From NCBI GenBank assembly GCA_002319075.1, contig NVQB01000001.1:3658001-3722000 (forward strand): a stretch of DNA of 64,000 nt, in the 5' to 3' direction. Below, piece by piece: positions 15,001 through 33,594 of this stretch. The position numbers and the translations under genes are program-made. Origin of the DNA: Sphingobacteriaceae bacterium. Lineage in GTDB: Bacteria; Bacteroidota; Bacteroidia; B-17B0; Aurantibacillaceae. Each line of letters opens with the position of its first letter. Within the stretch, counting starts at the first letter, position 1. The notes below the pieces were generated by a model. It did no database searches. It had not been told where the DNA came from and saw only the letters and a list, made by a program, of their open reading frames with translations.

Positions 15001-15551
15001 TTTTACCACTAAGGCACTGAGTTCACAAGAAGCACTGCGGGATAGATGATTTTTACCACCAAGACACGGAGTTCACAAGAAGCACTGAGGCAGTAGTCAA
15101 TAGATTATTTTTACCACTAAGACACTGAGTTCACAAGAGGCACTTAGGGTATAGTCAATAGATGATTTTTACCACCAAGACACGGAGTTCACAAGAGGCA
15201 CTGAGGCAATAGATGATTTTTACCACCAGGACACGGAGTTCACAAGAGGCACGGAGGGTGGAGTCAATAGATTATTTTTACCACTAAGACACTGAGTTAA
15301 CAAGAGGCACTGAGGGTAGAGTCAATAGATTATTTTTACCACTAAGCCACGGAGTTCACACGAGGCACTGTGGGTATAGTCAATAGGTGGTTTTACCACT
15401 AAGACACGGAGTTCACAAGAAGCACTGAGGCAGTAGTCAATAGATTATTTTTAGCACTAAGACACTGAGTTCACAAGAGGCACTGAGGCAATAGATGATT
15501 TTTACCATTAAGACACTGAGTTCACTAGAGGCACTTAGGGTATAGTGCATA
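15001..15551. repeat. Ten-copy intergenic repeat array, unit 50-59 bp
   Basis: Ten degenerate copies of a unit whose core reads TTTTACCACTAAGACACTGA, then GTTCACAAGAGGCACTGAGG. They start near 15001, 15051, 15109, 15167, 15218, 15276, 15335, 15391, 15449 and 15499. Spacings fall in two classes, about 50-51 and 56-59 bp, depending on whether the linker is a short AATAGATGAT or a longer AGTCAATAGATTAT form. Copies differ by a few substitutions. There is no coding potential and no constant spacer length, so it is not a CRISPR. It fills the gap between the genes at 14129 and 15604. Confidence 0.95.
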
Positions 15552-32106: not shown

Positions 32107-32193
32107 GGAGACCTGTCAGAGTGGTCGAACGAGCCCGCTTGGAAAGCGTGTATACGGGTAACTGTATCGAGGGTTCGAATCCCTCGGTCTCCG
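32107..32193 (+). tRNA. tRNA-Ser (GGA anticodon)
   Basis: 87 nt. The acceptor stem is GGAGACC/GGTCTCC with discriminator G at 32193. The T arm GAGGG-TTCGAAT-CCCTC is perfect. A long variable arm with a TATAC/GTAT(A)-type stem marks a class II tRNA. The anticodon loop TTGGAAA gives anticodon GGA at 32141-32143, reading UCC/UCU. The anticodon stem has one C-T mismatch (32135/32149). CCA is not encoded. The last 14-17 nt are repeated twice downstream. Confidence 0.96.
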
Positions 32194-32205
32194 CGGATAA
32201 ATAGC

Positions 32206-32237
32206 AAAAGGGTTTAAGCGAAAGCTTAAACCCTTTT
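32206..32237. terminator. Perfect hairpin A of repeat unit 1 (also at 32393-32424)
   Basis: A 14-bp stem AAAAGGGTTTAAGC / GCTTAAACCCTTTT with a GAAA tetraloop followed by more T. It would terminate the tRNA transcript 13 nt after the mature 3' end. An identical copy lies 187 bp downstream. Confidence 0.85.
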
Positions 32238-32293
32238 TTGTTTGACATGAGCGCATAAAGCCCTTCAGCTTTAATGCGTGAAGTGGCGAACAA

Positions 32294-32326
32294 AAAAGAA
32301 GGCTCGTTTTTCACGAGGCTTCTTTT
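32294..32326. terminator. Hairpin B of repeat unit 1 (also at 32481-32513)
   Basis: Stem AAAAGAAGGCTCGT / ACGAGGCTTCTTTT with one G-G mismatch, a 5-nt loop and T/A runs on both sides, so it could act in both directions. It is repeated in unit 2. Confidence 0.6.
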
Positions 32327-32589
32327 GTATTCTGACTCCGGGAGGCATTAGGGATCATGTCAATAATCCCTCGGTCTCCGCGGATAAATAGCAAAAGGGT
32401 TTAAGCGAAAGCTTAAACCCTTTTTTGTTTGACATGAGCGCATAAAGCCCTTTAGCTTTAATGCGTGAAGTGGCGAACAAAAAAGAAGGCTCGTTTTTCA
32501 CGAGGCTTCTTTTGTATTCTGACTCCGGGAGGCATTAGGGATCATGTCAATAATCCCTCGGTCTCCGCAAAAGATCACCAAATCAAATC

Positions 32590-32621
32590 AAAGCCCGTCA
32601 ATCTTAGGATTAACGGGCTTT
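32590..32621 (+). terminator. Terminator downstream of the repeat array
   Basis: Stem AAAGCCCGTcAATC / GATTaACGGGCTTT with a TTAG loop and a T-run. It lies in the unique sequence after the last tRNA-tail copy and was probably the original terminator of the tRNA gene before the tandem duplication. Confidence 0.8.
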
Positions 32622-32641
32622 TTGATTTTTATTACTATTAA

Positions 32642-32812
32642 AATCATTCATTAAATCGCAAGGCTGAGGTGGAGAATTCGGTGTCACCAAATTCTTTGCT
32701 AAGGGTTGATGGCAGCAGCCCTTACATAGCAAAGGCAAATAACCCCACCATTGCTTTGGCAAGGTTAATTGGGTTTACAGTTGATGGTGATGATCAATTT
32801 ATCAGTTACTGA
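32642..32812 (+). other. Possible small gene or gene remnant
   Basis: A frame without stops runs from just after a TAA to TGA 32810-32812. It has GTG (32669) and TTG (32696) as possible starts but no ATG. The deduced end, SSPYIAKANNPTIALARLIG then FTVDGDDQFISY, looks protein-like. I recognise no family. It may be the tail of a decayed gene or a chance frame in the 350-bp gap before the TetR gene. Confidence 0.25.
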
Positions 32813-32967: not shown

Positions 32968-33594
32968 ATGAAAGACGTGGATAAAAGAGAGCATATTTTA
33001 TTAAAAGCAGAAGAGCTTTTTTCAAAAAATGGTTTTAACGAAACATCTACTCGCATGCTGGCTGCTGCTGCTAAAGTAAACCTGGGGATGCTTACTTATT
33101 ACTTCGGCACAAAAGACAAAATATTGCAAGCGTTAATTGATCGTAAATTAGGTTTTTTTCGCGATAGTTTTGCCGTAATTGATAAGTTGGATTTGCCAAC
33201 CATAAAAAAGGTAGACGCAATCATTGACGTATATGTTGATCACATGTTTGAACACAGGCGTTTTCACCGCATCCTGCATAGCGAAGTGCTTTCAGAAAAG
33301 CATTCTGACCTGCTGGATTATGCATATGCTCTGATTAAAAAAAATCATGAGTTCCTGAGCGAGATAGTTGAAAAAGGGAAAAAAGAGAAAGAATTTAAGA
33401 ACATCGACAGTCGCTTGTTTATGGCTTCTATTACCGGCACGCTCACCCTTTTAATTAAAACAGAAACAGTGGGTATATTCTGGTTATCCTCCGATTCAAA
33501 AGCCAGCAGCTTAGATGATCCTGCATTTAAAAAACATGTTAAAACGTTTTTAAAAGAAATGGCGCATGGTTATTTAATTGCAAAAACAAATTAA
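32968..33594 (+). CDS. TetR/AcrR family transcriptional regulator
   Basis: 208 aa. The N-terminal HTH is EELFSKNGFNETSTRMLAAA, then AKVNLGMLTYYFGTKDKILQ, a textbook TetR DNA-binding domain (residues about 10-52). The C-terminal ligand domain is helical. It is followed 72 bp later by a TolC-EmrA-EmrB type efflux operon that it most probably represses. An operator-like palindrome lies in that gap. Confidence 0.93.
   Translation: MKDVDKREHILLKAEELFSKNGFNETSTRMLAAAAKVNLGMLTYYFGTKDKILQALIDRKLGFFRDSFAVIDKLDLPTIKKVDAIIDVYVDHMFEHRRFHRILHSEVLSEKHSDLLDYAYALIKKNHEFLSEIVEKGKKEKEFKNIDSRLFMASITGTLTLLIKTETVGIFWLSSDSKASSLDDPAFKKHVKTFLKEMAHGYLIAKTN

Follow-up and report, generated by a model that had tools for sequence, protein, structure and literature searches.

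The window, i.e. the whole stretch of 64,000 nucleotides analysed here, carries a tRNA-Ser(GGA) gene followed with zero gap by two tandem units of 187 bp, the second of which ends in the third copy of the tRNA 3′ tail. Upstream lies a peptidase-like ORF on the opposite strand and downstream a TetR-like ORF (32968-33594), both named by reading of the ORF translations. The features of the locus are:

32107..32194, + strand: tRNA-Ser(GGA) gene (ARAGORN; Rfam tRNA, 43.8 bits)
32173-32181, + strand: T-loop motif GTTCGAATC of tRNA-Ser(GGA), by motif position
32178-32194, + strand: repeated tail, the last 17 nt of tRNA-Ser(GGA) (direct repeat)
32195..32381, + strand: unit 1, ending in the tail copy 32365-32381 (direct repeat; match to covariance model R1, 159.9 bits, the unit being itself an input of R1)
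32382..32568, + strand: unit 2, ending in the tail copy 32552-32568 (direct repeat; R1 match, 160.5 bits)
32206..32237 (unit 1) and 32393-32424 (unit 2), + strand: hairpin H1, terminator-like (14-bp arms, 100% complementary)
32238..32293 (unit 1) and 32425-32480 (unit 2), + strand: hairpin H2 (minimum-energy fold)
32294..32326 (unit 1) and 32481-32513 (unit 2), + strand: hairpin H3 (minimum-energy fold)
32341..32379 (unit 1) and 32528-32566 (unit 2), + strand: hairpin H4, a mimic of T-stem and acceptor strand with an enlarged loop replacing the T-loop (minimum-energy fold; pseudo T-arm list)
32569..32690, + strand: post-tail stretch with a terminator-like hairpin at 32590-32621 (similarity to loci L041, L042 and L039 of congener G001)

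A sequence-only reading of this DNA had reported the tRNA tail three times at 187-bp spacing and two nearly identical full units, and both observations hold. The 17-mer AATCCCTCGGTCTCCGC starts at 32178, 32365 and 32552; the stretches 32178-32364 and 32365-32551 are 99% identical (TRF score 775), and the sole base that differs between units 1 and 2 is C32266/T32453. Chance cannot account for 187 bp repeated with a single mismatch, and this repeat together with its relatives in other genomes rules out both coincidence and an isolated duplication event. Elsewhere in the window (15001-15540) we observed a tandem array of 58-bp or composite units with 80-84% matches.

Read 5′ to 3′, unit 1 is composed of GGATAAATAGC, H1, H2, H3, TATTCTGACTCC, H4 and the tail end, and in the minimum-energy fold the end of TATTCTGACTCC pairs with the first 3 nt of the unit. 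H1 is a perfect 14-bp stem with a GAAA loop (4 nt), followed by a T-run, and thus has the sequence features of a predicted intrinsic terminator. The 3′ side of H4 is the T-stem and acceptor strand of tRNA-Ser(GGA). The perfect GAAA-loop terminator-like hairpin had been recognized in the earlier reading; what was there called a ‘second hairpin’ corresponds to three further predicted hairpins.

This architecture recalls the E. coli tyrT locus, where 178-bp repeats reportedly carry the tRNA tail and rtT RNA is said to have been observed as a stable RNA; we know of no other case of tail-carrying repeats behind a tRNA gene. Common to both are tandem units directly behind a tRNA gene, a tRNA tail in each unit and a structured sequence. 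The units described here differ in standing behind other tRNAs and tmRNA, in another phylum, and in carrying a T-stem hairpin with an enlarged loop. The likeness of architecture that had been proposed, with another tRNA in another phylum, is thus borne out, but it does not extend to the RtT family as modelled: RF00391 gave no match in this genome (0/1), whereas the same search finds E. coli among 14 controls (1/14), and RtT was absent among the unit matches at a permissive E-value too. Over the gathering cut-off, Rfam 15 returned tRNA only in the window, and 15 tRNA matches and one tmRNA match in 20 loci, with no family on the units. The best sub-threshold match on a unit, BjrC68 on H1 (27.7 bits against a threshold of 39), was taken as hairpin chance.

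Relatives were searched for with R1, a covariance model made from 15 units and tuned to the genus of the window organism. Related genomes do carry tRNA-tail repeats: R1 matches 28 of the 40 genomes of the genus (E up to 0.001), and the family stands at 17 anticodons and tmRNA. At 1e-5, it matches 28 of 295 genomes in a sample of the class and 5 of 296 in a sample of the phylum. These two samples have some genomes in common and include the own genome; the counts are model matches, part of them inspected, and since R1 is tuned to the genus, true frequencies outside it may differ. Judged by sequence, the two units of the window belong to a family of tRNA-end cassettes that is widespread in Bacteroidota. 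As far as our search of the open-licence PMC literature reaches, the family is undescribed, no description being found there among the top-listed titles and abstract starts.

In the same genome, relatives of these units immediately follow the tRNA genes for Arg(CCG), Lys(TTT), Arg(TCT), His, Met and Gln, and a truncated one follows that for Pro. Together with Ser(GGA), 8 of the 45 ARAGORN-called tRNA genes in the own-genome stretches taken carry a unit (by eye). A second array (G000:C1:341329-341692, 182 bp, two copies 97% alike) lies ~4 kb from tRNA-Ser(TGA). An island was considered as the cause of this displacement and rejected, the intervening 4 kb reading as CorA-like, AraC-like and FAD-oxygenase-like with no integrase recognised when the ORFs were read. 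An isolated H2 fragment was also noticed (L035, ~800-870; G000:C1:392604) in a 1.6-kb stretch where ARAGORN-type calling gave no tRNA. Among congeners, a unit lies directly behind the gene in 6 of 20 tRNA-Ser(GGA) loci and is truncated or indirect in two more (by eye). The 66 loci inspected from the genus search were taken from its best matches, not as a random draw. In some arrays (L048, L101, L156, L159, L046) the repeated part is confined to the 3′ module between mid-H2 and H4, and both H1 and the tail are missing.

Outside the genus, matches that directly follow a called tRNA or tmRNA gene, or belong to an array that does, were seen in G173, G283, G095, G148, G201, G171, G280, G428 and G448. 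The G280 unit stands behind tmRNA. By eye, 12 nt of the tail are copied exactly in G448; this genome is marked as belonging to the same phylum only, hence to another class. The match in G238 lies on the strand opposite to its tRNA-Arg and abuts the tRNA 3′ end, and G038 displays the same plan with a different sequence and an exact 15-nt tail. Those pattern-scan matches from unrelated phyla that were inspected were without the cassette.

For quantitative comparison, 156 matches gave 150 aligned ones and, after dropping those shorter than ~140 nt or overlapping a better one, 115 whole units; 106 were left after removal of near-identical ones. Of the 115, 56 have a tRNA or tmRNA gene on their own strand at most a few nucleotides before them, 14 come after a previous unit, and 9 follow a 3′ end that bears a T-loop but was not called as a gene. 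The remaining 36 stand elsewhere; by a pattern count, 32 of them are preceded by sequence whose end resembles an acceptor tail, as though something had been inserted there. In a typical cassette the first base lies no more than about one nucleotide from the tRNA or tmRNA gene, and in tandem arrays tail joins tail. The 17 anticodons represented correspond to 11 amino acids, and in a set of 16 loci 6 had a called tmRNA. Like tRNAs, tmRNA has a T-arm, an acceptor stem and 3′ processing, whereas no codon is shared. In L047, L110, L178 and L180, from four genomes and more than one genus, a near-identical GGTTCGAACAGGGTAAATTTGAGCCCGC, read as the end of an integrase gene, takes the place of the tRNA directly before the unit.

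The boundary of the copied tail was located in 23 units with at most one mismatch in the 14-nt tail, 22 of which have a recognisable T-loop. Identity to the adjacent gene starts at A58 (15 units), T60 (4), C61 (2) or 2 nt further (1), and so lies between A58 and C61 in 21 of these 22 nearly intact tails. Among the 56 tRNA-adjacent units, 42 have the T-loop motif GTTCSAWTY at most 40 nt upstream and none has it inside (0/56); a looser T-loop pattern is found upstream in 55 and inside 3. For these ‘inside’ counts the initial 40 nt of a unit were skipped. When all 115 units are scanned whole, GTTCSAWTY matches once, and that match falls in a hit which includes a tRNA gene. The cassette ends in a hairpin made of the T-stem of its own gene with an enlarged loop, and a copy of the acceptor 3′ strand often follows; the loop that replaces the original one on the copied T-stem is typically ATC-AGCGNAGCT-AAT. 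Tail conservation was counted in 79 of the 115 units, 34 of which have a tail within 2 mismatches, compared to none with shuffled tails (0/115). Such tails are found in 8 of 9 units with a next unit behind and in 26 of 70 last or only units, some ‘last’ units having a partial unit behind. These proportions indicate that the tail is a real copy, best kept within arrays and not generally required.

Several results point to constraint at the RNA level. In the first 60 of the 106 units, the folding energy is far below that of shuffled sequences (mean z -7.0, range -13.0 to -2.0). Single mismatches in helices before H4, scored with G.T pairs disallowed in 102 of the 106 units, comprise 49 G.T and 8 A.C. 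Under a stricter definition of core helices the counts are 42 G.T vs 8 A.C, against 44 vs 44 in 400 random intervals (Fisher p 6e-5), with 28 vs 4 in H2 and H3, i.e. beyond H1. An excess of G.T over A.C implies that pairing is kept on the sense strand, beyond H1 too, so that selection on, or transcription of, this strand is supported by the mismatch counts. Deamination linked to transcription, rather than selection, could yield the same excess, and it too would imply transcription.

Since RNAalifold on a MAFFT alignment recovered H1 and H4 only, the long-range closing stem P1 was tested by swapping partners between units. The swap tests drew on the 65 of 106 units with H4 placed (42 for the acceptor, 61 for P1), a few of these placements being visibly wrong. 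For P1, own pairing scored 23.7 vs 17.4 for swapped pairing (sd 0.48), a value that none of 2000 permutations reaches. In the predicted structures, P1 is therefore a stem that closes the cassette in many relatives and covaries within units. Its G.T and A.C mismatches (1 vs 2) are too few for a strand test, and the window’s own units have a 3-bp closing stem in the minimum-energy fold, not P1. For the acceptor 5′ strand against the tail, own and swapped pairing scored 10.4 vs 9.7, reached by 73 of 2000 permutations, and this is marginal. A minihelix with a tail-matched acceptor 5′ strand looks good in the window fold, but in view of the marginal own-vs-swapped result it is not claimed.

Kinship between units was compared with H4 and the tail removed, in a set of 113 units of which 61 allow both comparisons, some tRNA labels being taken from the tail only and Ser isoacceptors being pooled. 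The closest unit belongs to the same tRNA type in another genome in 49 of the 61 cases and to another tRNA in the same genome in 12; the two Ser arrays of the window’s genome account for at least 2 of these 12. A nearest neighbour in another genome at the same tRNA was observed 30 times vs 11.1 by permutation (maximum 27), and one in the same genome at another tRNA 7 times vs 2.0 (maximum 8), which is not beyond chance. Units thus appear mostly faithful to their tRNA; occasional spread between tRNAs is possible, e.g. between Ser and tmRNA in G060. Kinship following tRNA type favours inheritance over active movement, and recent transposition as the main mode was rejected on this ground.

The terminator behind the last tail had been held to be probably the original one, and this is doubtful. 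By local alignment, 32569-32690 is similar to three places in congener G001, with scores of 92 (L041, directly behind tRNA-Ser(GCT)), 70 (L042, behind a copy of the tRNA-Ser(GCT) tail) and 47 (L039, directly behind tRNA-Ser(GGA)), where shuffled maxima are 25-26. In G001 the tRNA tail and this element-like end abut directly; the window’s two units sit exactly between them. The tRNA-Ser(GGA) gene of G001 and the unit with its tail are ~44 kb apart, which looks as if an island had come between. Element ends adjoin the last tail in the window and also in L224 (the latter by eye). From these similarities, 32569-32690 is probably the end of an integrative element and not an original trailer.

No endonuclease gene, as would mark a GIY-YIG homing element, lies within a unit; such genes do lie behind other tRNA genes. 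In the own genome, GIY-YIG ORFs follow tRNA Met, Arg(ACG), Ser(GCT) and Leu(CAA), and Pfam confirms the domain in the ORFs at Met, Ser(GCT) and Leu and in one ORF of G009. The GIY-YIG elements also end in tRNA copies, with tail mismatches of 2, 2, 0 and 0. In L155, L166, L173 and L174 (own genome) and in L052 and L053 (relatives), a GIY-YIG ORF directly behind the tRNA is followed by partial tRNA copies, some with hairpins or palindromes inserted in loops. The palindrome CCCGATAGCTATCGGG was seen in the T-loop of degenerate tRNA copies at L154 (tRNA-Val, two copies) and L169 (tRNA-Ala, 258-bp units x3); tRNA-like copies with the same T-loop palindrome occur in clusters L157 and L158.

A parallel is offered by SegB of phage T6. 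In PMC13096335, SegB is described as a phage GIY-YIG homing endonuclease that cuts inside tRNA genes; a motif RAWTSGAAC, present at 23 of 83 sites, aids cutting and is not strictly needed, and the nuclease activity is required for tandem amplification of the tRNA-segB segment. RAWTSGAAC is the complement of GTTCSAWTY, which suggests that the SegB motif corresponds to the T-loop, a link drawn in the present analysis; the text of PMC13096335 contains neither ‘T-loop’ nor ‘T-arm’. The two systems have in common a motif equal to the T-loop and tandem amplification beside a tRNA, and would share a GIY-YIG enzyme and breaks in tRNA genes. They differ in that the T6 unit is a whole tRNA plus segB (718 bp), whereas the cassettes are gene-free and carry the tRNA tail only, the break step being postulated.

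The reading we favour, tentatively, is that the cassette may be a transcribed trailer/terminator module that duplicates with the T-loop as boundary. The tRNA transcript would run on into the cassette as a trailer, and the cassette would be preserved for the fold of its RNA, the simplest role being that of terminator plus trailer. A break or strand exchange at the T-loop motif followed by repair would duplicate everything from the T-loop onward. Likely break makers would be GIY-YIG endonucleases, as candidates, or tyrosine integrases, and islands crossing over at tRNA ends would put a similar boundary on offer. With no such motif in the enlarged loop of the copy, only the real tRNA would stay a target; T-loop breaks would explain that many tRNAs and tmRNA are hit, that the copy starts at the T-loop and that the motif-less copy persists. 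In favour of the trailer-module reading we count the position of the units, the T-loop boundary and loss of the motif, the sense-strand bias, P1 covariation, presence/absence between congeners, the GIY-YIG neighbours and the SegB parallel. Against it stand the terminator-like character of H1, which speaks against transcription past H1, as well as the marginal acceptor pairing, the limits of P1, kinship by tRNA type and the origin of the enlarged loop; the window’s tRNA-Ser(GGA) locus has no GIY-YIG gene, which counts against the break model there.

Part of this evidence can be read otherwise. The strong folding (mean z -7.0 over 60 units), the sense-strand constraint and the tails within 2 mismatches (34/79 vs shuffled 0/115) would equally suit an rtT-like stable small RNA, in which cuts after the tRNA and after each pseudo-tail release an RNA of ~187 nt with a tRNA-like 3′ end that acts in trans. 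We regard this as possible though doubtful: a good tail in just 26 of 70 last or only units implies that keeping a processed tRNA-like end is not the rule, the acceptor strands pair marginally and there is no RtT match. Ordinary stacked terminators, duplicated by chance behind a tRNA gene and of no further meaning, would agree with H1 as a good terminator-like hairpin and with last tails that are little or not conserved in many units; the same plan at 17 tRNA species and tmRNA, the fixed T-loop boundary and P1 covariation make such an origin quite improbable. Still further down comes an assembly artefact, which we judge very improbable. Near-identical tandem repeats can misassemble and the copy number here is read from the assembly, but diverged relatives occur in many separate assemblies, including a single-contig congener, and the same genome carries a diverged two-copy array.

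Integrative elements require a separate word. Known elements with att sites in tRNA 3′ ends show direct repeats of the tRNA end, and the units, too, are bordered on either side by such a repeat. They might accordingly be tiny non-autonomous elements or att remnants, moved or left by tyrosine integrases at tRNA ends, with the tail as attachment core. Element ends lie beside tails in the window, and 32 of the 36 displaced units follow an acceptor-like end, several with TTCGAA and a presumed integrase-gene end. The units, however, are shorter than 200 bp and contain no integrase, for which 187 bp leaves no room, nor any ORF of at least 60 aa confined to them, although integrative elements without an integrase exist. 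The T-loop is lost at the far end: as a crossover sequence at both unit ends it was not found, the motif being absent from the inside of all 56 units adjacent to a tRNA; the crossover may lie further 3′. RNA-like, sense-strand constraint is not expected of such elements; moreover, one integrase usually needs one core, and the tails differ between tRNAs, against use of a single core. We consider this origin unlikely, slightly less so than plain stacked terminators.

A bolder version of the trailer-module reading, which we hold to be rather doubtful, would make these cassettes phylum-wide RNA elements on tRNA and tmRNA genes. They would carry the 3′ T-arm half and acceptor of their own gene, multiply via GIY-YIG breaks at the T-loop and shield their own copy by the capped hairpin that replaces it, so that the essential host tRNA stays a lasting target and template.

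Taken as a whole, the cassette family is real; to judge from sequence comparison it looks transcribed, and it is rtT-like in plan, not RtT by model. Across several families of a single phylum, a tyrT-like plan recurs at tmRNA and 17 tRNA species; its boundary is fixed at the T-loop, and the sense-strand fold shows signs of constraint. If the proposed reading is true, the role of structured tRNA trailers would become directly testable, as would the possibility that breaks at a near-universal tRNA-gene sequence reshape tRNA genes, and the annotation of tRNA 3′ ends, attachment sites and small RNAs in Bacteroidota would be affected.
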